DNA of 64,000 bases from Aeromicrobium sp. CnD17-E. GTDB taxonomy: Bacteria > Actinomycetota > Actinomycetes > Propionibacteriales > Nocardioidaceae. The position numbers were made by a program, and so were the translations under genes. Below the pieces are notes generated by a model. It was not told where the DNA came from. It ran no database searches and was given only the letters and a program-made list of their open reading frames with translations. Shown one piece after another: positions 28,942 to 42,057 of the stretch. The stretch spans positions 1 to 64,000 of the forward strand of contig NZ_JAMXRU010000007.1 in NCBI RefSeq assembly GCF_024124745.1, given 5' to 3'. Position 1 is the stretch's first letter, and each line of letters opens with the position of its first letter.

Positions 28942-30825
28942 TCAGCGGCGCAGGAACCGCTCGAGCAGCGGGCCCGCGGTGGCCGAGCCGGAGTCGCCGT
29001 CCGCGACGAACACGGCGACGGCGAGGTCGCCCTGCGTCGCGATCATCCAGGCGTGCGTGCGTGGTGGCTGGTCGTCGCCGTACTCGGCGGTGCCGGTCTT
29101 CGCCCGGACCGGGCCGCCCGGCACGTCGCGCAGGAACGCGCCACTGCCGTCCGTGACGACGGCGCGCATCAGTCCGGCGAGGCTCCTGGCCTGCGCGCGG
29201 GTCACGGGCTCGTCGGGTCCCGGCGCCTGCTCCAGCCGCCGGTCGGGCAGGAGCACCGGCGTCACCGTGCCACCGTGCGCGACGGAGGCGGCCACCACGG
29301 CCATGGCCAGTGGGGAGGCCTCCACCCGGCCCTGGCCGATGACCGACGCCGCGCGCTCGGTCCCGTCGGCCCGCGTCGGGACCTGCCCGAGGAACGCAGG
29401 GATCCCGAGGTCGACGTCCCGGCCGAGTCCGAGCCCGGCCGCCGCGGCCGCGAGCTCGTCCTGCGGTGCTCGCTCCCGCTCGGCGATCATGGCGGTGTTG
29501 CAGGACTGGGCGAAGGCGGTGCGCAGTGGGACGTCGCCGAGCGCCGACGCGGGGTAGTCGGAGTAGTTCGTGAACCGTCGGCCGTCCACGGTCAGGGTCG
29601 GGGTGCACGGCACCCGGCTGTCCGGGGTGAGGCCGGAGCGCAGGAGGGCCAGGGCCGTCGCGACCTTGAAGGTCGAGCCCGGCGCGTACCGGCCCGTCAA
29701 CGCCGTGTCGGCACCGTCGCCGCCGGGGCCGCTGGAGACCGCCAGCAGCGCACCCGTCGACGGTCGGATCGCGACGATCGCGCTGGCCGGACCGACGTCG
29801 GCGAGGATCCGGTCGGCCGCACCCTGCAGGTCGGGGTCAAGCGTGGTGCGAAGCGGCTTCCCGGCCTTCGGGGCGCTGGAGAAGAGTCGCCGGGACTCAG
29901 TCTCGGGGTCGTCGTCGACGGCGAGGACCTCGAGGCCCGGGGTGCCGCGCAGCTGCTCGTCGTAGCGCGCCTGCAGCCCGGACAGTCCCACCTGGTCGCC
30001 GGGCCGGACCGCACCGTCGGACTTCTCGACGACCTCCGCGGTGGCCTCGCCGACGGTGCCGAGCAACGGCTGCCCGAACGCACGCGTCGGGGCCAACGGC
30101 AGGGTGCCCTCGACGGCCAGCGACCCGGGGATCGCGGCGAGCTCCTGCCGGGTCGGCACGTCGCCGTCGGCGCGCAGGACGAGCCCCTCGACGAACGCCC
30201 GGTCGCCGGCCGCCTCGACGCGCGCACGGTAGGCGCCGGGGTCGATGTCGAGCAGCTGCGCCATGCGCTGCGCCGACGTCCCGGCCGCGTCGGACCCGAC
30301 GGCCGTCTTGTCGATCCCGACCCGCACGACCGGTCGAGCCGTCACGAGAGGCGCGTCGTCGACGCCGAGCACGTCGCCCCGCTCGGCCGGCGTCGTCCGC
30401 GCCGCGAGCGTCTCGCCCTCCCTGACCGGTGCGACGACGGACGGCTCCCACCGCACGCGCCAGGTGCCGTCCTGCTGCACGAGGGTCGCGGTGGTCTCGT
30501 ACGACCAGGTGGACCCGCCGATCGTCCACCGGTGCTGGAGCTCGGCCGTGGCAGAACCGTCGTCCTCCTCGACGGAGGTCACCTCGACCTGGCGCCTCCC
30601 ACCGACGTCGGCGACGACCCGTTCGAGGTCGGCCTGGTGGCGCGCGCCGTCTCCCGTGGTCGGCACCGACGTGACGTCACCCTTCGACAGCCCCTCGGCG
30701 AGCGCCCGGGCCGGATCCTCGGGGTCGGGCCCGCCCAGGCTGCACCCGACCAGGACCCCGGCAGCCACCAGCGGGCCGGCAGTCGCGGCGACGATGCGGA
30801 GACGGGCTGGACGACGCTGACGCAT
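28942..30825 (-). CDS. Penicillin-binding protein with MecA_N domain (class B transpeptidase)
   Basis: 627 residues. Lipobox VLVGC at 24-28 predicts a lipoprotein instead of the usual N-terminal helix. Residues 35-150 form an NTF2-like MecA_N domain, then a dimerisation domain, then the transpeptidase: STFK with nucleophile Ser384, SCN at 441-443 and KTGTAEY at 576. It crosslinks peptidoglycan outside the membrane. Low-affinity PBPs carry the MecA_N domain, so beta-lactam tolerance is possible but not shown. Confidence 0.92.
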   Translation of the reverse strand: MRQRRPARLRIVAATAGPLVAAGVLVGCSLGGPDPEDPARALAEGLSKGDVTSVPTTGDGARHQADLERVVADVGGRRQVEVTSVEEDDGSATAELQHRWTIGGSTWSYETTATLVQQDGTWRVRWEPSVVAPVREGETLAARTTPAERGDVLGVDDAPLVTARPVVRVGIDKTAVGSDAAGTSAQRMAQLLDIDPGAYRARVEAAGDRAFVEGLVLRADGDVPTRQELAAIPGSLAVEGTLPLAPTRAFGQPLLGTVGEATAEVVEKSDGAVRPGDQVGLSGLQARYDEQLRGTPGLEVLAVDDDPETESRRLFSSAPKAGKPLRTTLDPDLQGAADRILADVGPASAIVAIRPSTGALLAVSSGPGGDGADTALTGRYAPGSTFKVATALALLRSGLTPDSRVPCTPTLTVDGRRFTNYSDYPASALGDVPLRTAFAQSCNTAMIAERERAPQDELAAAAAGLGLGRDVDLGIPAFLGQVPTRADGTERAASVIGQGRVEASPLAMAVVAASVAHGGTVTPVLLPDRRLEQAPGPDEPVTRAQARSLAGLMRAVVTDGSGAFLRDVPGGPVRAKTGTAEYGDDQPPRTHAWMIATQGDLAVAVFVADGDSGSATAGPLLERFLRR

Positions 30826-30932: not shown

Positions 30933-31769
30933 ATGACGACGCGCACCTTTGCCGCCACCAAGGTCCCCTCCGTCCTGGCGACGTTCTGGGTGGTGAAGCT
31001 GCTCACCACCGGCATCGGCGAGACCGGGTCGGACTACCTGGGCACGGTGAGCATCCCGCTCGCCGCAGCCATCGGCGTCGGCGGCTTCGCCGTGGCGCTG
31101 TGGACGCAGCTGCGGGCCGACCGCTACCACCCGGTCCGCTACTGGACCACGGTGCTCGCGGTCGCGGTGTTCGGCACGATGATCGCCGACGGTCCGCACG
31201 TCGTCCTCGGCACGCCCTACTGGGTCGACTCGCTGGTCTACCTGGTGCTGCTCGGTGCGGTGCTCGCGTGGTGGCGGCGCAACGAGGGCACGATCTCGGT
31301 GCACTCGATCACGACCGCACGGCGCGAGCGCTTCTACTGGGGCGTCGTGCTGCTGACGTTCGGGCTCGGCACCGCGCTCGGCGACGCAGCCGCGGTCGAC
31401 GCCGGCCTCGGCTTCGTCTGGTCGATCCTCGTCTTCGGGGTCGCCATCCTCGTGCCGTGGGGTCTGCGGCGCGCGGGCCTGAACCCGACCGTCGCCTTCT
31501 GGTCGGCGTACGTGATGACCCGCCCGCTCGGTGCGTCGGTGGCCGACTGGCTCGGCAGGGGGACGAGGGACGGCGGGGTCGGCTGGGGCACCGGGCCCGT
31601 GACGCTCGCCGGTCTCGCGCTGTTCGCCGGGCTCGTCACGTTCCTGGCCCTCACCCACCGCGACGTCGACAGCGCCGTCGACAGGGCCGTCGACCGGGAG
31701 ACGGGCGATGCCGGCGCCAGCGGTACCCCTGTCGACGACACCCCGCGCGACGCCGTCCCGCAGCGGTGA
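30933..31769 (+). CDS. COG4705-type membrane protein
   Basis: 278 residues with about eight membrane helices arranged as an internal duplication: WVVKLLTTGIGETGSDYL in the first half matches WGVVLLTFGLGTALGDAA and YVMTRPLGASVADWLG in the second. The repeated polar T-x-G-E/D motifs inside helices suggest a transport site. The family has been linked to metal or organic cation traffic, without proof. A TACGGT box lies seven bases before the ATG. Confidence 0.75.
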   Translation: MTTRTFAATKVPSVLATFWVVKLLTTGIGETGSDYLGTVSIPLAAAIGVGGFAVALWTQLRADRYHPVRYWTTVLAVAVFGTMIADGPHVVLGTPYWVDSLVYLVLLGAVLAWWRRNEGTISVHSITTARRERFYWGVVLLTFGLGTALGDAAAVDAGLGFVWSILVFGVAILVPWGLRRAGLNPTVAFWSAYVMTRPLGASVADWLGRGTRDGGVGWGTGPVTLAGLALFAGLVTFLALTHRDVDSAVDRAVDRETGDAGASGTPVDDTPRDAVPQR

Positions 31770-32517: not shown

Positions 32518-33993
32518 ATGACACGAAAGATGATGGGCTGCGTCGCGGCCATCGTGACCGCGACGACAGCCGCCGGCATCGTCGGGCTCGGCACCACGAG
32601 CGCGTCGGCACGCGACGGGGCACCGACGGTCGCCGCCGCCGACTCCTACGCCCGGCACCACGGCGCACCGCGCGCGGACCTGCGGCTCGACCGCACCGTC
32701 CAGGTGCCCGGCGGAAGCGTCGCGCACTTCCAGCAGTACCTCGCCGGCAAGCCGGTGATCGGTGCCGAGGTCGTCGTCCAGCTCGACGCCCGCGGGAAGA
32801 TCCACGGCACCACCGGCGCCGTCACGTCGGCGCCGCGCAGCGTCACGGCGGCACCCGCACGGACGGAGGCGAGCGCCGAGCGGACGGCCAAGGCGTCGCT
32901 GCGCAAGGCCGGAGCGGCGGAGGTCGACGCGACCGCAGCCGCCGCGACCGACCTCGCCTGGTACGACGCGGGCCTGTTCAAGGGGGCGCCGTCGAGCGGG
33001 GCCGTGACGCTCGTGCACGACGTCGAGGTGACGCCGACCGCGGTCGACGCCGTCGGCGGTCGGGTGCTCGTCGACGCGAACGACGGCACGCCGGTCTACA
33101 CCGAGACCACGCAGCGTGAGGCGACCAACCGTCGGGTGTGCGACGCCCGCAACCAGTACGTCACCAACCTCGACTGCCCGAGCCCGGTGCGGACCGAGGG
33201 GTCCGCGGCCAGCAGCGTCTCGGAGGTCAACGTGGCCTACGACCAGCTCGGTGCGACGTCGTCGTTCTACAGCAGCCGGTTCGGGTACGACCTGACGACG
33301 CAGATCGGCGGCGGAACACTGCGGGCGACGGTACGCGCCTGCTACCGCGACTCCGGTGGCGACTACGGCTGCCCGATGGAGAACGCGTTCTGGACGGGAC
33401 GCAGCATGGTCTTCGGCCAGGGCTTCGCCTCCGCCGACGACGTCGTCTCCCACGAGCTGACGCACGGCGTCATCCAGAACACCGCGGACCTGGTGTACTC
33501 CTACGAGCCCGGCGCCATCAACGAGTCGATGGCCGACGTGTTCGGCGAGTTCGAGGACCTCGACAACGGCACCGGCACCGACACGTCGTCCGTCCGGTGG
33601 CTGCTCGGTGAGGACCTGCCCATCGGCGCGATCCGCGACATGCGCACGCCCGAGCGCGGGAACCAGCCCTCGTCCTACCGCGGCCAGTACTGGCAGAGCG
33701 GCTCGAGCGACAACGGCGGTGTCCACACCAACTCGGGCGTCGGCAACAAGGCGGCGTTCCTGATCACCGACGGCGGGACGTTCAACGGCCAGACCATCAC
33801 GGGTCTCGGTCAGGCCAAGGCCGAGCAGCTGTACTGGCGGACGCTCAACGCGCTGACGAGCTCGGCCAACTACGCCCAGCTGGGCCAGACGCTGAGCTCC
33901 TCGTGCTCGGCCCTCGCCTCGAGCGGGACCGCCGGGTTCACGTCGAGCGACTGCCAGCAGGTCGGCAAGGTCGTGACCGCTACGCGGATGTAG
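32518..33993 (+). CDS. Secreted M4 (thermolysin) family metallopeptidase
   Basis: 491 residues. A Sec signal peptide (about 1-31, ending SASA) is followed by an FTP/PepSY-type propeptide (to about 200) that acts as inhibitor and chaperone. The catalytic domain has HELTH at 312-316, the third zinc ligand Glu336 in INESMADVFGE, and the active-site histidine in GGVHTNSGVGNKA. It is a zinc endopeptidase released to the medium for protein degradation. A strong intrinsic terminator follows. Confidence 0.95.
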   Translation: MTRKMMGCVAAIVTATTAAGIVGLGTTSASARDGAPTVAAADSYARHHGAPRADLRLDRTVQVPGGSVAHFQQYLAGKPVIGAEVVVQLDARGKIHGTTGAVTSAPRSVTAAPARTEASAERTAKASLRKAGAAEVDATAAAATDLAWYDAGLFKGAPSSGAVTLVHDVEVTPTAVDAVGGRVLVDANDGTPVYTETTQREATNRRVCDARNQYVTNLDCPSPVRTEGSAASSVSEVNVAYDQLGATSSFYSSRFGYDLTTQIGGGTLRATVRACYRDSGGDYGCPMENAFWTGRSMVFGQGFASADDVVSHELTHGVIQNTADLVYSYEPGAINESMADVFGEFEDLDNGTGTDTSSVRWLLGEDLPIGAIRDMRTPERGNQPSSYRGQYWQSGSSDNGGVHTNSGVGNKAAFLITDGGTFNGQTITGLGQAKAEQLYWRTLNALTSSANYAQLGQTLSSSCSALASSGTAGFTSSDCQQVGKVVTATRM

Positions 33994-34636
33994 CGGGACG
34001 GCTGAGGGGATCGCCCGTACCGCCTGCGCGGTGCGGGCGATCCTTTCGTCCACGGTCCTGCCCTGAGGTGTCCACGTACGTGCTGACCGCGAACCTCGGC
34101 GCGAGGGCGTCGAACATCTCCTGCTCGGCACGCACCCGCGCCAGGACCTCCGGCGCGGCAGTGGCGCCGTGACCGACGAACTCGCGCCCCGCCGTGACGC
34201 CGGCGTACGCCGCGTCGGCGAAGACGTCGACGGGGGCGCCGTGCGGGGCGTCGAGGCCGGACAGGCCCGTGGCCACCGCGGGCGGAGCGAGCTCGGTGAC
34301 CCGGACGGCGGTCCCGGCGAGCGCGTGGCGCAGGGTGAGCGTGTAGCTGTGCAGGGCCGCCTTCAGCGCGGAGTAGAGCGGCGCGAAGGGCTGGGGGACG
34401 AAGGCGCCTCCGGAGGTGACGTTGACGACCTGTGCGGGCGTGCCGCGACGGACCAGGTGCGGGACCAGCAGGTGGTTGAGGTGGACGGGGCCGCTGAGCA
34501 GCACGTGCAGCTCCTCCTCCCGCACCGACCACGGGTCGTGGTCGTCCGCGAGGGCGACCCGGCGCTGGATCCCCGCGTTGTTCACCACGACGTCGACGTC
34601 GGGCAGGACGTCGAGCACGTGGTCGTTCCTGGTCAC
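33980..34636 (-). pseudogene. Truncated SDR gene (DltE-like), broken at the island boundary
   Basis: The frame encodes the second two-thirds of an SDR: VVVNNAGIQRRVAL, NVTSGGAFVPQPFAPLYSALKAALHSYTLTLRHAL with the Tyr/Lys pair, and VTELAPPAVATGLSG. The N-terminal TGxxxGIG cofactor half (about 65 residues) is absent. The frame begins in the last codons of the adjoining JAB-E1 gene (GTG 34636 lies within its GGGTGA end). The 3' end also runs through the M4 gene's terminator and into that gene by 14 bp, so the native stop seems lost too. It cannot bind cofactor and is probably a remnant left by island insertion. Confidence 0.75.
34008..34046 (+). terminator. Intrinsic terminator of the M4 peptidase gene
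   Basis: ggatcgcccgtaccgc (34008-34023) pairs with 34028-34043, sixteen positions with one G-T wobble, closes a 4-base loop and is followed by TTT. It starts 14 bases after the stop. Confidence 0.8.
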
Positions 34637-36000
34637 CCGACGAGGCTGACGCGCCGATCTCCGGCCAACAGGCGACCCTCCATGCTGCAGGCGCTACCGG
34701 TCGTGTACTCGAGCGTACGACGAGTCTGCAGGCTAAAGATGTGCTGAATCGGTGGGCCGACCTCCCAACGCCTGGCGGCAGTCAGCACGACGAACTGCTC
34801 AAGAAGTCCGGCGATGACCGTCGCGCTGAACGCGGCAACGTTCGGAGCGCCGTCTTGGCTCTGGCGTCCGGCCTGCTCCAGGTACCCAGGGTTGTCCAGG
34901 AGGCCCTGCCGTTCGAGGGTCACCTCCGACATGTTGATCTGTCGGGAGCAAGCGAGGCAGGGATTTCCGGGCACAACCGTCTGGAATCGTGCGCTGGCAC
35001 GCAGGATTCCACCCTGTGGATGGGGAGCGAGGTCGAGGCCGCCGTCGATGACCGGGATGAGATCGGCATACGCGATGGAACTGAGCACGGCACGGGGCCA
35101 GGGCCTGTCGACACAAGAAAAGATGACGTCGTAGTCGAGGGCAGCCGCTACCCCCTGCTGTGTGCACAGGCTGAAGGCGTGCTGTTCGACCGTGAACTCG
35201 TCGGCCGTGGCGGCACGTCGGGCGAGGCGGGCGGCGACAGCGACCTTCCTGCGACGCAGTCGAGCGTCCCATCGGGTCGCGCCAACGAGCCGGTCAAGGT
35301 TGCGGCGCTCCACGACGTCGGCGTCCATGACCCCGACATGCTGAACGCCGGATGCCGCGAGGCGCAGCGCGACGTCGAGCCCGACACTGCCGACTCCAAC
35401 GACGAGGACCTTGAGACGAGCCATGTCAGCCTGCGCAGCTTCGCCCCAGGCCGAGACAGTGCGAGCCTGTGCGGCTTGCGCGGCGGGCTTCGGGACGAGC
35501 GCGTCGTTCCACGACACCTCGAGGCGGCCGCCCACCACCCGCACCGACTCGCTCCACGTCGGCTCGGTCGTGTCCCACGACCGTGCCGACCAAGCTCCGT
35601 CGCCACCAGCCAGCGTGAGCCCGATGAGCGGAAGGCCTGTCACCTCGCGGACCAAGGTGGCGTAGGAGCGCTCAGCGTCGTGGTCGTACCGACTGAGTTG
35701 CTGCCAACCGCGTCCTCGCGGGTGGCTGTGCAGGATGGCTAGGCCGCGCCCTGCCGCTGCTGCGGCCGTAGCCTCACGGAGGACGTACTCGCCGCGGATT
35801 GTTGCGTTGCCGTGGACGATCCGGTCCTCGCGTCCTGGCAAGAGGACATCATCGATCAAGTGTGTGACGCGCCGCGCCCCGGTCGACACAGAGTAGGTGG
35901 CAAGACAGATGTCCTCGTCGCCATCTGGCCGCAACAGGTGGCTCCGGAGAGCCGTGTTGAGTTCAGCGGTCATCGCGACTGACAGCGACGCCCCGGTCAC
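34633..36000 (-). CDS. JAB/JAMM peptidase fused to an E1-like (ThiF) activating enzyme
   Basis: 455 residues from GTG 36000, which overlaps the E2-like stop and has GGGGAGG upstream; ATG 35973 is an alternative. Residues 30-150 are a JAB domain: His91, His93, Ser103 and Asp106 fit H-x-H-x9-S-x2-D, with Glu71 or Glu76 as general base. Residues 185-430 are an E1/ThiF domain: GVGSVG at 202-207, DADVVERRNLDR at 226-237, a Lys near 252, and CLAC at 348-351 with Cys438 as possible zinc ligands. It should adenylate the C-terminus of the beta-grasp protein encoded two genes upstream, and cleave precursors or conjugates. Last gene of the three-gene operon. Fused JAB-E1 proteins are known from genome surveys of prokaryotic ubiquitin-like systems. 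Confidence 0.85.
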   Translation of the reverse strand: MTGASLSVAMTAELNTALRSHLLRPDGDEDICLATYSVSTGARRVTHLIDDVLLPGREDRIVHGNATIRGEYVLREATAAAAAGRGLAILHSHPRGRGWQQLSRYDHDAERSYATLVREVTGLPLIGLTLAGGDGAWSARSWDTTEPTWSESVRVVGGRLEVSWNDALVPKPAAQAAQARTVSAWGEAAQADMARLKVLVVGVGSVGLDVALRLAASGVQHVGVMDADVVERRNLDRLVGATRWDARLRRRKVAVAARLARRAATADEFTVEQHAFSLCTQQGVAAALDYDVIFSCVDRPWPRAVLSSIAYADLIPVIDGGLDLAPHPQGGILRASARFQTVVPGNPCLACSRQINMSEVTLERQGLLDNPGYLEQAGRQSQDGAPNVAAFSATVIAGLLEQFVVLTAARRWEVGPPIQHIFSLQTRRTLEYTTGSACSMEGRLLAGDRRVSLVG

Positions 36001-36362
36001 AGCGCCTCCCCAAGGACGCCGCGCACGTGAGCCAGCCAGACGTGGATGGCGGGACGGTCGGTGTCCCACTGGCCGGTGTCCCGCGAGTGACGCCTCCAGC
36101 CGGGCGGGCAATACTGCCCATCTGCGTTCGTCGCGGCGAACTCGACGTCGTCCTTGAGGTGCACCCAGTGCGGCGGCGCGGCCGGCCACCCTGCGAGCTC
36201 CGCGACCGTGACGCCAGTACGAACCGTCTGGCCGGCGAAGGCGCCGGCGACTGGGACGAGGTCGTAGTAGACGACGTCCCCGTCTCGCTCGGGGCGTAGA
36301 CCCTCTCGGTGGAGGTCGGCGACGAAGCCGTCCGCGCCGTCCGTCACGGTCGTGGTGGACAT
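35997..36362 (-). CDS. E2-like protein (Prok-E2_E-type) of a ubiquitin-like system
   Basis: 121 residues. WVHLKDDVEFAATNADGQYCPPGWRRHSRDTGQWDTDRPAIHVWLAHVRGVL matches the C-terminal half of Prok-E2_E proteins, where a W..WSRH block is followed by W.PG.D and a His-containing last helix (written here only as description of residues 66-117). Cys85, just before PPGWRRHSR, is the only cysteine and would be the thioester residue if it acts as an E2. It starts two bases after the UBL stop and is overlapped by the JAB-E1 gene, so all three are co-translated. The family call is by motif memory, so moderate. Confidence 0.68.
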   Translation of the reverse strand: MSTTTVTDGADGFVADLHREGLRPERDGDVVYYDLVPVAGAFAGQTVRTGVTVAELAGWPAAPPHWVHLKDDVEFAATNADGQYCPPGWRRHSRDTGQWDTDRPAIHVWLAHVRGVLGEAL

Positions 36363-36364
36363 GG

Positions 36365-36601
36365 TCAGGCGACCGGGGCGCTGTGTCGGACGGTGACGAA
36401 TCGGTCCCCGTCGTCGATGTCGACGACCTTGCGATCCTTGTACGTCTTGGTCTCGCCGTTGCGCTTGACCTTCGCGAGGTCGTACTCGTCCGGGTTGAGA
36501 CCAGCGAGACGGAGAAGCTGAGCGGCCTCCTGGTCGTCGTCGCGCGTCTCGTACTGAGTGCCGTCGATGGTGAAGTGGATCTTCTTCCGCTTCTCGTTCA
36601 T
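36365..36601 (-). CDS. Ubiquitin-like beta-grasp protein (single multiubiquitin-type domain)
   Basis: 78 residues. The pattern IHFTIDGTQYET...EAAQLLRLAGLNPDEYDL...VDIDDGDRFVTV matches one unit of the Multi_ubiq beta-grasp family: two strands, a helix, then the LAG..P..Y.L turn and a final strand. It ends in PVA, without the Gly-Gly of ubiquitin, so any conjugation must use another C-terminal residue or follow trimming. AGGAGGA precedes ATG 36601. First gene of the operon with the E2-like and JAB-E1 genes; that context supports the call. Confidence 0.72.
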   Translation of the reverse strand: MNEKRKKIHFTIDGTQYETRDDDQEAAQLLRLAGLNPDEYDLAKVKRNGETKTYKDRKVVDIDDGDRFVTVRHSAPVA

Positions 36602-36634
36602 GGAAGTTCCTCCTGTGAGTTGTCCTACGGGCTA

Positions 36635-36667
36635 TTGCAAGGTCGGTACCGCTGGTCTACCTTGCAA
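36635..36667. promoter_or_regulatory. Inverted TTGCAA repeat 1, UBL operon promoter region
   Basis: TTGCAAGGT (36635-36643) pairs with ACCTTGCAA (36659-36667), perfect 9-bp arms with a 15-bp spacer, 34 bp upstream of the UBL ATG. Probably bound by the divergently encoded XRE protein. Confidence 0.6.
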
Positions 36668-36692
36668 AGGTGACGCTACCCGGGTTTGTTCG

Positions 36693-36724
36693 ACATTTGC
36701 AACCTATTCGACTCTTGCAAATGT
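36693..36724. promoter_or_regulatory. Inverted TTGCAA repeat 2
   Basis: ACATTTGCAA (36693-36702) pairs perfectly with TTGCAAATGT (36715-36724), with a 12-bp spacer. Together with repeat 1 this gives four TTGCAA sites within 90 bp, in the most AT-rich stretch of the island. On the minus strand the TTGCAA at 36697-36702 could also serve as a -35 box. Confidence 0.6.
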
Positions 36725-36886
36725 TCGCGACGCCTTCTCGCACCGCGAGTAGCGACCGGCCGACACGAGGCCGATGAGCCGAAAGCGCTGCAACTGCAGC
36801 ACCGAGACGCGTGACGCGTCGCCGCCAGTTCCGTCTCGGGACTTTGGTCACAACTTCCCAAACTTCGCTCAACGCCAGGAACGTGA

Positions 36887-37252
36887 ATGTCCGAACGCGC
36901 AACCTTCGACCACGACAGCTTCTTCTCCGCCATTGACAAGACCCGAGCCAGCGAATCCAAGACATGGCGACAAGTTGCACTCGAAGCCGGGGTCAGTCAG
37001 TCCACTCTGACCCGACTTGCCCAAGGAAAAAGGCCCGATGTGGACAGCCTCGCCGCCCTCGTGTCATGGGCGAGGCTCAACGCCAACGACTTCGTACTAG
37101 CTCCCGACGACCCGGACGCCGAGACACCAACCGTGGCACGCATCGCCACGTTCCTTCGCGCAGATAAGAGCCTCAGCCCCGAAGCAGCCCGCGCGCTCGA
37201 GACGGTAATCGAGGCGACATACGCCGCCGTGGGCGGCGGGAAGAAGCTCTAA
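36887..37252 (+). CDS. XRE family helix-turn-helix regulator
   Basis: 121 residues. SKTWRQVALEAGVSQSTLTRLAQGKRPDVDSLAALVSW (about 24-61) is a Cro/C1-type helix-turn-helix. The C-terminal half is helical and may dimerise. It is read away from the UBL operon across the TTGCAA sites and lies six bases before the ImmA/IrrE gene. The pair resembles repressor-antirepressor modules of mobile elements, in which the peptidase cleaves the repressor on induction. Confidence 0.88.
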   Translation: MSERATFDHDSFFSAIDKTRASESKTWRQVALEAGVSQSTLTRLAQGKRPDVDSLAALVSWARLNANDFVLAPDDPDAETPTVARIATFLRADKSLSPEAARALETVIEATYAAVGGGKKL

Positions 37253-37258
37253 GTCGCG

Positions 37259-37834
37259 GTGGCCTCCTACAAGCTCCCGGGTGCCTTCACGAAGATGGCC
37301 GAGGAACTCGCCCTCGAGATCCGCGATGAACTTGGCCTTCGGCCCTCCGACCGCCTTCGTCCGCTCGAACTCCTCGAGCACCTCGATCTGCCCGCCATGC
37401 CAACTTCCGCACTGATCGCTCTCGCGCACCCAGGGATCGCGGACGCGGTCGAGTTGCTCGCGAAGAACGGGAGTTTCTCGGCTCTCACTGTGTTCCGGGG
37501 CACCGAGCGTCTCGTCGTCTTCAATGACACGGCGACGGCAGGCCGGCAGGCCGCCGACATCACGCATGAAGCAGCCCACGGACTGCTCCTCCACGAGCCG
37601 ACAACCGCGATCGACGAGTTGGGCTGCCGCGCGTGGGATGACCGCGTCGAGGCGGAGGCAACCCACCTCGGCGCGTGCCTACTCATTCCGGCTCGCGGCG
37701 TCCGCTACTGGGCAAAGGTCGGCAAGGGAATCGACGAGATCGCGCAGCACTTCGGCACGAGCATCGAACTCGCGCGGTGGCGGTACAACATTAACGGCGG
37801 CCGGCGCATCGCCGCCAGCAGTTCTCGGCGTTAG
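37259..37834 (+). CDS. ImmA/IrrE family metallo-endopeptidase
   Basis: 191 residues from GTG 37259. ITHEAAHGLLLH gives the HExxH zinc site (His103, Glu104, His107), and VEAEATHLGACLLIP holds the third ligand (Glu131 or Glu133) in the family's typical block. It likely cleaves the XRE regulator encoded just upstream, which would release the UBL operon. No ribosome site is obvious, so coupling to the XRE gene is probable. Confidence 0.9.
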   Translation: MASYKLPGAFTKMAEELALEIRDELGLRPSDRLRPLELLEHLDLPAMPTSALIALAHPGIADAVELLAKNGSFSALTVFRGTERLVVFNDTATAGRQAADITHEAAHGLLLHEPTTAIDELGCRAWDDRVEAEATHLGACLLIPARGVRYWAKVGKGIDEIAQHFGTSIELARWRYNINGGRRIAASSSRR

Positions 37835-38230
37835 TCCGAGGTTGAGGCAGGCGCTGTCCACTGACGAACAGCGACGACGCCTCGCACCGGCTCTGCAGAT
37901 TGGGTAGCCGGCGGGACGACTCTCAGGCGCCGGTCGACTCGATCAACTCGGTGACGCGAGCTCTCGCAACTTCCTCACCTAGCCACTGGATGACCCTCAC
38001 GACAGAATCGACGTCGAGAAGGACCGCGGCGACAAACGCGACGCCCACGACGTCGCGGGCGCGGCGAGGCGCGGCACGGAGCAACGGCGGCACCCACTCG
38101 ACCCACGACATGTCGCCATTCTGAACGCGAGCACCGACACCTAACTCACAGACGCGCGCATCCAGGTTCTGGCGGACCGTGCGCACCTTGGGCGAGGGGT
38201 AAGACCCGCCGACGGCATCGAGGCCTTCGG
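37835..38230. other. Distal end of the island, up to tRNA-Ala
   Basis: This 396-bp stretch between the ImmA/IrrE gene and tRNA-Ala holds one possible small minus-strand gene (37923-38111) and otherwise no convincing feature. No integrase, transposase or terminal repeat is visible, and no copy of the tRNA-Ala 3' end was found at the other island edge near 34.6 kb. Confidence 0.6.
37923..38111 (-). CDS. Possible 62-residue membrane protein at the island end
   Basis: [20 protein letters not shown] is followed by a hydrophobic stretch (VVGVAFVAAVLL, about 21-32) and a charged helix ending ELIESTGA. The hydrophobic segment is short for a full membrane span. No good ribosome site precedes ATG 38111. 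No family is recognised. It could be chance. Confidence 0.25.
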   Translation of the reverse strand: MSWVEWVPPLLRAAPRRARDVVGVAFVAAVLLDVDSVVRVIQWLGEEVARARVTELIESTGA

Positions 38231-38303
38231 TGGAGCTGAGGGGACTCGAACCCCTAACCCCCTGCTTGCAAAGCAGGTGCGCTACCAATTGCGCCACAGC
38301 CCC
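38231..38303 (-). tRNA. tRNA-Ala (anticodon TGC)
   Basis: 73 bases read on the minus strand: acceptor GGGGCTG pairs with CAGCTCC, anticodon stem-loop CTGCTTTGCAAGCAG with TGC in the loop, and T-arm GGGGTTCGAGTCCCC. CCA is not encoded. It borders the accessory island. Confidence 0.95.
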
Positions 38304-38311
38304 TCGCGGGA

Positions 38312-38431
38312 TCAGACCGAGTCGGTGGCCTGCTCCCAGGTGGTGCGGGTGGCGGCGGTCCCGTCGTCGCGACGAGCCACGGCCCACAGCACCCCGAGCG
38401 CGGCGAGGACGACCGCGAGAAGCTTCTTCAT
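38312..38431 (-). CDS. DLW-39 family peptide
   Basis: 39 residues: an N-terminal hydrophobic helix (MKKLLAVVLAALGVLWAVAR) and an acidic tail ending WEQATDSV. Length, place beside gyrA and the tail match the DLW-39 family, although the name-giving DLW is TTW here. It lies between tRNA-Ile and tRNA-Ala on the same strand, so it is probably released from a common transcript. Function unknown. Confidence 0.75.
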   Translation of the reverse strand: MKKLLAVVLAALGVLWAVARRDDGTAATRTTWEQATDSV

Positions 38432-38457
38432 CGCCGTCCTCCTCGGGCGTCCGGTGG

Positions 38458-38532
38458 TGGGCCTAGCTGGACTTGAACCAGCGACCTCTTCCTTATCAGG
38501 GAAGCGCTCTAACCGAGCTGAGCTATAGGCCC
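38458..38532 (-). tRNA. tRNA-Ile (anticodon GAT)
   Basis: 75 bases on the minus strand: acceptor GGGCCTA pairs with TAGGCCC, anticodon arm CTTCC-CTGATAA-GGAAG, T-arm GCTGGTTCAAGTCCAGC. CCA is not encoded. It follows DUF3566 by about 70 bp. Confidence 0.95.
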
Positions 38533-38605
38533 GCAACAGCGATGAACTCTACCCCACGCCCGGGCGACCGGGCGAACCGGGGGCAGCACCGCCGGAGTTC
38601 GCGGA

Positions 38606-39442
38606 TCAGTGATCCGTGAACGTCACCTCGATGCCGCCCAGCAGCTGGGCGGCGAGGTTGTACAGGTGGGCGGCGATCGTGGCGATCGCCGTCATCAGCA
38701 CGACGTTGACCGCGCTGAAGATCAGCGTGAGGCCGACGAGGCGACCCAGGCCGAGGTAGTCGGTGAGGTCGAAGCTGCCGGCGCTGTCGGACAGCACGTT
38801 GGAGACCGTGCCGTTCAGCTGGTCCCAGATGCCGGTGAGGTCGAGGACCACCCAGAAGATGGTGACCGCGACGACCGAGACGATCATGAGGGCGACCGAG
38901 ACGACGAACGCCAGACGGGTGACCGACCACGGCTCGACGTGCGTCAGCCGCAGCCGGGCCTGACGACCCGACGCCGACGCCGCTGCCGGCGAGGCGGAGG
39001 CCTTCGGCTCGTCCTTGACGGCAGGGATGACCGCCGTGCTGTCGGGCGACTGCGACGTGGTGCCGGCGTAGTCGGCAGCGGTGGGGGTCTTCTCCCGGGC
39101 CGCCGCACCCTTCTTGGCGGGGGCCGACTTCTTGGCAGGGTCGGGCCGGCCGACCGGGCTCGGCGTCGCCTTCTTCGCCGTGCTGGGACCGTCGGTGGAC
39201 GGCTTGGACGCCGCAGGCTTCGCGGGCGAGGCGCTCCCCGACGTCGAGCCGCTCGGGCGACCACGGCCGGAGGCCGGGCGGGCGGGACCGGCGGGACGGC
39301 GGTTCGCGCCGCCCTGCGTCGCGTCCTTGCTGCCACCGACGGGCTTGCCGTCACGGTCGAGGCGCGGGATCTGCTGCGTCCGCGCGGCGTCACCGGCGCC
39401 CGAGCTGGGTGCCCGGTCCTGAGGCTTCTGCTGGTCGCTCAC
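38606..39442 (-). CDS. DUF3566 membrane protein
   Basis: 278 residues. A long Ala/Lys/Pro-rich disordered N-terminus (to about 165) leads to the conserved part: [26 protein letters not shown], an extracellular loop, and a second helix [31 protein letters not shown]3566 genes follow gyrA in most actinobacteria, as here (ATGA overlap). The role is not known. Confidence 0.92.
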
Positions 39443-42057
39443 TCGTCGTGCCCCTCGTCAGTCGTGTCAGTGACCTCGGTGCCCGTCTCGTCGGGCGTCA
39501 CCGGGTCCACCGTACCGGCCGGGGCGTCGTCGGCCTCGCTGTCCGGCTCCGCCGCGCCGCTCAGGTCGGTGTTCCGTGCGATGGTCACCACCCGGTCGTC
39601 GCCCTTGAACTTCACGAAGGTGACGCCCATCGTGCCGCGACCCTTGGCCGGCACGCCCGCCACCTGGCTGCGCGTGACCTGGCCCCCGGCGGTGACGGAG
39701 ATGACGTCGTCGGAGTCCTTCAGCACCAGTCCGCCGACCAGCTCGCCGCGGGCCTCGGTGATCTGCATGGCCTTGATGCCCAGGCCGCCGCGGCCCTGCA
39801 GGCGGTACTCGTCGATCGAGGTCTTCTTGGCGTAGCCGCCGTCGGTGACGGTGAAGACGTAGAGCCGGTCCTCCTCGGGCACGTCCTCGACGGCGACGTC
39901 GGCGTGCTCGTGCCGGATGACCGTCATGGAGAGGAGCGCGTCGTCCTCGCGGAACTTCATGCCCGTGACGCCGGACGTCGCGCGACCCATGGGCCGCAGC
40001 TGGTCGTCGTCGGCACGGAACCGGATGGCCTGCGCCTTCTTGCTGATGAGCAGCAGGTCGTCGTCGGGTCCGGCGATGTCGGCGCCGATGAGGGCGTCGT
40101 CCTCGTCGCGGAAGTTGATCGCGATGACGCCGGCCTGGCGCGGGCTGTTGTAGTCGGCCAGCCGGGTCTTCTTGACCAGGCCCTTGCGGGTGGCGAGCAC
40201 CAGGTAGGGCGCCTGGTCGTAGTCGCGGATGGCGAGGACCTGCGCGATCTCCTCGTCGGGCTGGAAGCTCAGCAGCCCGGCCACGTGACCGCCCTTGGCG
40301 TCGCGGCCGGCCTCGGGCAGCTGGTAGGCCTTCGTGCGGTACACGCGGCCGGCCGTCGTGAAGAACAGGATCCAGTGGTGGGCCGTGGTGGGGAACAGGT
40401 GCTCGACGAAGTCGCCGTCGCGCAGCTGCGCGCCGCGCACGCCCTTCCCGCCGCGACCCTGCACCCGGTACTGGTCGGTGCGGGTGCGCTTGGCGTAGCC
40501 GCCGCGGGTGATGGTGACCACGACGTCCTCGTCGGGGATGAGGTCCTCCATCGACAGGTCGCCGTCACCCGGGACGATCGGCGTGCGGCGGTCGTCGCCG
40601 TACTTGTCGACGATCTCCGCCAGCTCCTCGCTGACGATGGCCCGCTGACGCTCCTCGCTGGCGAGGATGGCCTTGAAGTCGGCGATCTTGGCCTCGAGGT
40701 CGGCGAGGTTGTCGATGATCTTCTGCCGCTCGAGGGCCGCGAGGCGACGCAGCTGCATGTCGAGGATCGCGCGCGCCTGCAGCTCGTCGATCTCGAGCAG
40801 CGCGATCAGGCCGTCGCGCGCCTCCTCGACGGTGGGGCTGCGGCGGATGAGCGCGATGACCTCGTCGAGCGCGTCGAGCGCCTTCACGAGACCACGCAGG
40901 ATGTGGGCCTCGGCCTCGGCCTTCTTGAGGCGGTAGGCGGTGCGCCGCTGGATGACCTCAATCTGGTGGGCGATCCAGTGCGTCACGAACCCGTCGAGCG
41001 TGAGCGTGCGCGGCACGTCGTCGACGAGCGCCAGCATGTTGGCGCTGAAGTTCGACTGCAGGTCGGTGTGCTTGTAGAGGTTGTTGAGCACGACGCGAGC
41101 CACGGCGTCGCGGCGCAGCTCGATGACGATGCGCATGCCGGCACGGTCGGACGACTCGTTGCGCAGGTCGGAGATGCCCTGGACGCGGCCGGCGTTGACC
41201 AGGTCGGCGATCTTGCGCATGAGCGCGTCGGGGTTGACCTGGTAGGGCAGCTCGGTGACGACGAGCTGGATGCGACCCTTCGTGTCCTCCTCGATGTTGA
41301 CCACGGCACGCATCTGCACCGAGCCGCGGCCGGTGCGGTACATGTCCTCGATGCCGCGCGTGCCCACGATGAGGCCGTGCGTCGGGAAGTCGGGGCCCTT
41401 GACGCGCTCGATGAGCGCCTCGAGCAGCTCGGCCTTGCCGGCGTCGGGGTGGGCGAGCGCCCACTGGACGCCGTCGGCCACCTCGCGCAGGTTGTGCGGC
41501 GGGATGTTCGTGGCCATGCCGACCGCGATGCCGGCCGAGCCGTTGACGAGCAGGTTGGGGATGCGCGCGGGCAGCACCGTCGGCTCGGAGGAGCGGCCGT
41601 CGTAGTTGGGCTTGAAGTCGACGGTGTCCTCGTCGATGTCGCGCACCATCTCCATGGCGATGGGCGCGAGCTTGCACTCCGTGTACCGCATGGCGGCCGC
41701 CGGGTCGTCGCCGACGGAGCCGAAGTTGCCCTGGCTGGCGATCATCGGCGCCCGCATGACCCACGGCTGGGCGAGCCGGACGAGGGTGTCGTAGATCGCC
41801 GTGTCGCCGTGCGGGTGGTACTGACCCATCACGTCACCGACGATGCGGCTGCACTTGGAGAAGCCGCGGTCGGGACGGTACCCGCCGTCGAACATCGCGT
41901 AGAGCACGCGCCGGTGCACCGGCTTGAGCCCGTCGCGGACGTCGGGCAGGGCCCGCGACACGATGACGCTCATCGCGTAGTCGATGTAGGACCGCTGCAT
42001 CTCGTCCTGCAGCTCGACAGGCTCGATGCGGTCGCGCTCGATGGGGGTGTCGGTCAT
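39439..42057 (-). CDS. gyrA: DNA gyrase subunit A
   Basis: 872 residues. [27 protein letters not shown] opens the breakage-reunion domain; AAMRYTE holds the catalytic tyrosine; QGRGGKGV is the GyrA box of the C-terminal DNA-wrapping domain. In the quinolone region, [10 protein letters not shown] has Thr where E. coli has Ser83. With GyrB it supercoils DNA. It lies 55 bp after gyrB. Confidence 0.98.

Follow-up and report, generated by a model that had tools for sequence, protein, structure and literature searches.

Bacteria possess operons in which a ubiquitin-like (Ubl) modifier is encoded together with E1-, E2- and JAB-type proteins. In the Bil systems (BilA-D), which comprise all four of these, the E1 and JAB proteins are products of separate genes and the chemistry is that of cysteine, while Bub chemistry is cysteine-free and of the ester type. 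Here, we analyse a 64,000-nt stretch of Aeromicrobium sp. CnD17-E (NZ_JAMXRU010000007.1, positions 1-64,000; hereafter, the window), in which three coupled minus-strand genes (34633-36601) encode a modifier, an E2-like protein and a JAB-E1 fusion, so that, unlike in Bil, JAB and E1 share one chain. We consider it likely that this is a horizontally acquired conjugation operon, related by sequence to Bub and to the type 6e layout, from a broad lineage in which the DUF6527 protein, presumably the one named BubE, was not found.

With the Citrobacter Bub system (BubA, BubB and BubCD; PDB 9ea4, 9ea5, 9ea8, 9eae, 9eav), the window shares the JAB-E1 fusion, a BubB-type E2 with the serine of a W-S-R motif and a multi-ubiquitin-type modifier, and HTH (helix-turn-helix)/M78 regulators adjoin some Bub operons as they do here. 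It differs in that no BubE/DUF6527 protein was found, in that its modifier ends in Val-Ala with no nearby Gly, whereas a Gly is present in the modifier tail of all 14 compared Bub operons, and in that Pfam Prok-E2_E does not match its E2. Modifier and E2 form one chain in the Citrobacter koseri and Enterobacter Bub operons but are separate genes in the window; an Enterobacter relative of Citrobacter BubCD carries Prok-JAB and ThiF on one chain, as here.

The type 6e layout was listed by Iyer et al. in 2006 (PMC1779556; here and below, statements cited by PMC number refer to the available portions of those papers). The window has its Ubl domains, solo or multiple (one to three), encoded by an adjacent gene, its separate E2/RWD-fold gene between Ubl and E1 (an occasional form) and, as in most cases, JAB N-terminal to E1 on one chain. 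The metal-binding fourth protein of type 6e is absent, and the type 6e E2 was read as lacking a catalytic cysteine (PMC1779556), whereas 25 of the 27 members of the window's subclade carry Cys85. The multiubiquitin cassette of Synechocystis pSYSX shares with the window the divergent HTH and M78 genes and the succession of modifier, E2 and JAB-E1 (PMC4963859), but differs by DUF6527 and a two-domain modifier ending in Glu-Gly. In type II CBASS, Cap2/Cap3 support E1/E2-type conjugation via a C-terminal Gly or Ala (PMC10097602); there, E2 and E1 are one chain (PMC12355090), unlike the separate proteins here, and the protein conjugated is cGAS, which is not of the beta-grasp kind. Conjugation of cGAS was lost when it ended in Ser (PMC10097602), whereas 25 of 82 modifiers of the present family end in Ser.

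Results

A three-gene operon related to Bub

The operon consists of the following genes:

36365-36601, minus strand: ubiquitin-like modifier (BubA-like), 78 aa, one beta-grasp domain, C-terminus ...SAPVA (Multi_ubiq, model, fold matches)
35997-36362, minus strand: E2-like protein (BubB-like), 121 aa, UBC (ubiquitin-conjugating) fold (model, fold match, hhalign)
34633-36000, minus strand: JAB-E1 fusion (BubCD-like), 455 aa, GTG at 36000 and stop at 34633; JAB at about aa 8-142, E1/ThiF at about aa 180-376, shortened C-terminal tail (phmmer, conserved residues)

Re-reading of open reading frames and motifs recovered all three genes that an earlier note, made from the sequence alone, had reported, with Cys85 as the sole cysteine and W89-R-R-H-S93-R94 in the 121-aa protein, and H91-x-H93-x9-S103-x2-D106 and the GVGSVG/RNLDR core in the 455-aa protein. 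Two bases separate the modifier stop from the E2 start, and the E2 and JAB-E1 genes overlap by GTGA. The JAB-E1 protein contains a ThiF domain (Pfam, E=4.9e-27), and its best sequence match in the PDB is Citrobacter BubCD (9ea4, phmmer E=9.7e-20) in an alignment spanning residues 8-399, that is, both the JAB and E1 parts. This alignment and a gene order that is that of type 6e, described in 2006, contradict the claim of the earlier note that the layout is unlike Bub. Among the domains it had named, ThiF was thus found, Multi_ubiq matched the modifier below the Pfam cut-off (E=5e-4; 20.6 bits against 24.5), Prok-JAB gave no score on the window JAB-E1 protein, and Pfam named no domain, Prok-E2_E included, for the 121-aa protein. 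At E 0.001, Multi_ubiq was matched by 8 of 36 modifiers and Prok-E2_E by 8 of 40 E2s, one of them that of L030, a member of the BubE set described below. PADLOC scored the E1 part alone among the window's three operon proteins, likewise in two Bub operons.

Confident models confirmed the beta-grasp and UBC folds that had been proposed for 36365-36601 and 35997-36362. The modifier model (36 sequences; mean pLDDT [predicted local distance difference test] 88.3) had bacterial multi-ubiquitin proteins as its top fold matches (8u38, 9cd2, 9d59), the best of which, 8u38, is named Ubl-BilA by its depositors; Citrobacter BubA (9ea8_B) was placed 15th in Foldseek and 6th in VIA (Z 8.6 vs 11.3 for the top match). 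Aligned with a BubA-type profile of seven sequences, the modifier profile reached 97.0% probability (E=1e-10, a single-pair E-value). For the E2 model (31 sequences; mean pLDDT 93.6), Citrobacter BubB (9eae_C) was the first but weak match by Foldseek (E=0.012, probability 0.99, TM [template modelling score] 0.49), which gave no match at E 0.001. VIA also placed BubB first (Z 8.0, rmsd [root-mean-square deviation] 3.6, 109 aligned), tied with the next rows, the TSG101 UEV domain (Z 7.2) and eukaryotic E2s. In hhalign, the E2 profile matched nine BubB-type sequences at 97.8% probability (E=8.8e-13, again for a single pair), with Ser93 on the Ser of the BubB WSRH, which is present in 9/9 of these sequences. 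The UBC fold of the 121-aa protein is thus supported by model and profile comparison, and homology to BubA, BubB and BubCD was found for all three proteins.

Relatives of the operon and the search for BubE

Two peptide patterns taken from eight relatives served to pick the genome loci, a sampling biased to this clade, and the best 80 of 117 confirmed relatives were retained, their contigs being scanned with an eight-sequence alignment. Together with ten plasmid loci, one same-order locus and the window, these make up 92 loci (numbered with the prefix L). Profile searches found an E2 beside the JAB-E1 relative in 90/92 and a modifier in 88/92 of them (one domain in 58, two in 29, three in 1), which bears out that the genes belong together, as the earlier note had held. 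Record titles assign relatives to phyla including Actinomycetota, Chloroflexota, Acidobacteriota, Gemmatimonadota, Bacteroidota, Pseudomonadota, Planctomycetota, Myxococcota, Spirochaetota, Omnitrophota and Lloydbacteria; as many records are metagenome-assembled genomes, phylum names taken from titles may be wrong. Among 58 genomes (that of the window and 57 relatives), a near full-length JAB-E1 was present in the window's and one other, at 51% identity, all remaining matches covering at most about half of the protein. On a haloarchaeal plasmid (L029), a JAB-E1 relative on a long branch follows two small genes recognised by neither profile, possibly a more distant form of the system.

DUF6527 was sought with one seed and then with a four-sequence profile. 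It was found in one of the 92 loci, a Rhizobium plasmid operon (L030), and in none of the 86 others with at least 1 kb of downstream sequence (87 including L030); the next candidate row was L084 (E 0.17-0.43). The window's genome had no match over the cut-off and one weak match (E=0.21), and since this search fires in 7 of 14 control genomes, once over the cut-off, weak matches mean little. The Bub comparison set (the BubE set) consists of 14 plasmid operons hand-picked among the matches listed, 13 with a clear and one with a weak DUF6527. Annotation gave DUF6527 for L030, L136, L137, L138, L141, L144, L146, L147 and L148, and the profile for L140, L142, L143 and L145 (E <= 1.5e-23), as well as weakly for L149 (E=0.0068), which is counted in.

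In an unrooted tree of 88 E1 rows, a single branch with support 100 (SH-aLRT, quick search) parts the 14 BubE-set operons from the rest, and none of 500 label shuffles did as well as the real separation. A first tree, with five BubE-set rows, agrees. The 91 E1 rows do not include L043, whose frame is broken; the first tree omits L054 and L103, and the second L029, L054, L103, L139 and 13 near-copies. L139, a DUF6527 operon, is in the first tree but outside the modifier comparison.

An Ala or Ser end of the modifier

The window modifier ends in HSAPVA, with no Gly in its last eight residues. A Val/Thr-Ala/Ser end is shared by 77 of 82 unfused modifiers outside L030 (VA 44, VS 23, TA 8, TS 2; VG, VT, VV, VE and RE one each, the RE-ended L086 possibly in a wrong frame) and, as VA, by all 27 members of the window's subclade. 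The last eight residues are Gly-free in 33 of the 82, the window's included. Five further modifiers are fused to the E2, with V-S-D at the joint in four and V-A-D in one. By eye, the 14 BubE-set operons instead have a Gly (EG, DG, NG, PG) as the last residue of the tail or close to it, followed in some cases by an extension; the PDB 9ea8 construct comprises BubA 155-229, and the Gly of NGE is residue 229 in the Enterobacter relative and 230 in that of C. koseri. Overlap of start and stop codons was considered as a cause of the Ala/Ser end and rejected: ATGA/GTGA does occur at the stop in 40 of 83 unfused genes, but the last Ala uses all four codons and the last Ser five.

Conserved residues of the E2 and the JAB-E1 fusion

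Across 90 E2s, Ser93 is invariant, while Trp89 is present in 83 and Arg94 in 82. Cys85, which the earlier note had emphasised, is present in the window but not a feature of the family: its column holds C in 25 rows, L in 30, a gap in 14, F in 13 and other residues in 8. All 25 cysteines fall among the 27 members of the window's subclade, with none in the 63 E2s outside; the two members without it are L031, which has Val and is the window's nearest relative by tree path, and L036. Cys85 as a family-wide nucleophile was rejected on this count.

The JAB residues are conserved throughout the 91 E1 rows (E29 in 89; H91, H93 and D106 in 90 each; S103 in 78, with Asn in 11), as are G202, D226, D228, N234, R237, K252 and D298 of the E1 domain (91/91). 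Kept cysteines are C296 (89), C348 (91), C351 (90) and C438 (88), of which C348, C351 and C438 presumably resemble zinc ligands, after ThiF/MoeB. Between C351 and C438, the window E1 has no Cys, and neither do 33 of the 91 rows; where present, this Cys mostly sits at position 434, four before C438. At position 392, 80 rows carry Ser and five carry Cys (L021, L022, L032, L045, L048), a lead at most: by sequence, an acyl acceptor or a neutral swap is possible.

Regulatory genes and insertion site

The operon is preceded by a divergent gene pair, in agreement with the earlier note, which had ascribed to it a regulator pair of its own:

36887-37252, plus strand: HTH repressor-like protein, 121 aa, CapH-like, divergent (HTH_3 E=1.1e-5; PADLOC capH E=1.6e-4)
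37259-37834, plus strand: ImmA/IrrE (M78) metallopeptidase, 191 aa, HEAAH motif, CapP-like (Peptidase_M78 E=9.7e-12; PADLOC capP E=4.4e-8)
36635-36724, no strand: two inverted-repeat pairs on TTGCAA, operator-like, arms from 36635/36659 and 36693/36715

The pair thus fits the CapH+CapP type, in which genes for an HTH protein and for an M78 peptidase adjoin an operon of immune type. CapP, activated by single-stranded DNA, cleaves CapH, and CapW or CapH+CapP lie beside 219 of 544 Bub operons (PMC13373217, 2026). In the present family, the 3.2 kb upstream contain an M78 gene in 63 of 78 loci, 49 of these 63 genes being divergent, against 2 of 79 loci for the downstream side. The 64 kb contain five TTGCAA sites, four of which cluster in 86 bp of the divergent intergenic region, where they form two inverted pairs; a count of at least four occurred in 0 of 2000 first-order simulations, the motif having been picked after being seen, and at least two 9-bp arm pairs in 1.2% of simulations. 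Other 9-bp inverted arms are present in four of ten relatives, and Synechocystis has 2 TTGCAA. Neither a promoter nor a terminator was detected on scanning 36500-37000. Together, the HTH and M78 pair and the TTGCAA repeats suggest induced expression.

The genomic setting adds two features:

33980-34636, minus strand: short-chain dehydrogenase (SDR) without its N-terminal part, marking the left insertion junction (adh_short match starting at profile position 70)
34626-38165, no strand: inserted or replaced stretch of 3,540 bp, comprising the operon, the regulator pair and ~330 bp (BLASTN vs G060)

In the BLASTN comparison with the sister genome G060, homology ends at window position 34625 and restarts at 38166. 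G060 has 666 bp in place of the 3,540 bp, including the start that the SDR gene retains there and part of a 160-codon open reading frame that is MarR-like by eye. The insertion sits between the cut SDR gene and a tRNA-Ala gene 63 bp outside its right edge. Among 50,697 phage records, no JAB-E1 match was obtained at E 0.001, so that no phage origin was seen. The stretch adjoining the insertion at 38229-42057 (tRNA-Ala, tRNA-Ile, a DUF3566 protein and gyrA) is a chromosomal core region. On the other side lies an M4 (thermolysin-type) metallopeptidase with a propeptide motif (32518-33993); further away, the window encodes a penicillin-binding protein with transpeptidase and dimerisation domains (28942-30825) and a protein with four DUF347 repeats (30933-31769).

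The E1 stop and the left junction are 8 bp apart. Judging from the sequence, either the insertion trimmed the E1 gene or the contig is wrong at the junction.

Discussion

From its sequence, the operon is best described as a small ubiquitin-like tagging system, real and conserved, and of a kind already described. We propose that the HTH protein, bound to the TTGCAA repeats, would keep it repressed until the M78 peptidase senses DNA damage and cleaves the repressor. The E1 domain would then adenylate the C-terminal Ala of the modifier, which would pass to the E2 without a conserved E1 cysteine beyond the zinc-like and core positions. There, the acceptor would most likely be the invariant Ser93 or, alternatively, Cys85 in the window's subclade. 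The E2 would place the modifier on targets, from which the JAB domain would remove it, and in the modifier-E2 fusions, JAB would probably free the Val-Ser/Ala end. Its role is likely a response to stress or phage. An antiphage function of this operon is a guess. A 2025 review sees phage defence as the apparent main activity of such systems (PMC12687455), while by the 2026 paper protection from phage is yet to be demonstrated for Bub (PMC13373217).

A more specific joint reading, which we hold tentatively and at rather less than even chance, is that of a widespread BubE-less lineage, in at least ten phyla by record titles, whose modifier is activated at a C-terminal Ala or Ser rather than Gly and passed to the E2 serine that never varies, next to which a cysteine appears in one subclade rich in actinobacteria. 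Several observations weigh against it. A Gly does lie within the last eight residues of 49 of the 82 unfused modifiers; 16 of the 82, all in the window's subclade of 27, end in GGVA, and a Gly five or six residues from the end is found in 18 of 25 Ser-ended and 8 of 8 TA-ended modifiers. Trimming back to Gly is therefore possible in those 49, and a tail beyond Gly exists in some BubE-type modifiers as well. That JAB or another peptidase generally trims the modifier to an internal Gly and discards Val-Ala/Ser nevertheless appears doubtful, considering the 33 Gly-free modifiers, a last residue pair that is better conserved than the Gly, and the Val-Ser/Ala-Asp joint in 5/5 fusions. Likewise, the retention of Cys85 in 25 of 27 members means that cysteine chemistry is possible in the subclade. 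An ordinary cysteine E2 there, with Cys85 as the canonical thioester site and Ser93 structural, would also fit a weak profile match to UBE2F (E=0.47) in which, by eye, a cysteine that we take to be the active-site one falls on the Cys85 column. We consider this unlikely, as L031 and L036 lack Cys85, its column holds Leu, Phe, a gap or other residues outside the subclade with Ser93 unchanging in 90 rows, and the C351-C438 interval of the window's E1 is free of cysteine. Also to be counted against the proposed scheme are the failure to find DUF6527, given which the Bub mechanism may not carry over, the finding of no TTGCAA within 250 bp upstream of the modifier in ten relatives, whose regulators were not compared for likeness, and the short E1 tail of the window, which has 7 aa vs 37-88 aa in the other 26 subclade members.

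On account of this tail, cut at the junction, the window copy may be impaired. That it is a decaying remnant that no longer works is conceivable, if on the improbable side, since none of its three reading frames is interrupted and it retains the JAB and ATP-site residues listed above, tails of 5-8 aa occur in four members elsewhere in the family, and misassembly at the junction would be another cause of the short tail. A 2016 survey read the Synechocystis HTH and M78 genes as a toxin-antitoxin pair and reported 70% of Multi_ubiq proteins beside such loci (PMC4963859). By this token, the window's pair could hold the cassette in place instead of regulating it, which we regard as quite unlikely: it matches the capH and capP models, is placed divergently with operator-like repeats in between, and CapH+CapP regulate other immune operons (PMC13373217). 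The ThiF/MoeB-like E1 domain would also suit a sulfur-carrier or cofactor pathway of the ThiS/MoaD kind, without protein conjugation; the E2-fold gene in 90 of 92 loci, the lack of a Gly-Gly end on the window's modifier and ten plasmid neighbourhoods with no thiamine or molybdenum cofactor gene among annotated neighbours make this very improbable.

A literature search, mostly by title, found no paper on a BubE-less or Ala/Ser-ended lineage; the defining Bub papers were outside its coverage, so the novelty of these two points is unproven. To our knowledge, a C-terminal Gly is close to a rule among ubiquitin-like modifiers. In print, we encountered one exception, the cGAS of CBASS (PMC10097602), whose last residue is Gly or Ala and which does not belong to the beta-grasp proteins. 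Beta-grasp modifiers that end in Ala or Ser, many without a nearby Gly, raise the question of what the E1 pocket accepts, and the missing BubE asks what this protein does where it is present. The invariant serine, in turn, asks whether Ser can act as an E2 acceptor, and the Cys85 subclade with its two Cys85-less members would allow serine and cysteine chemistry of the E2 to be compared in a natural setting.

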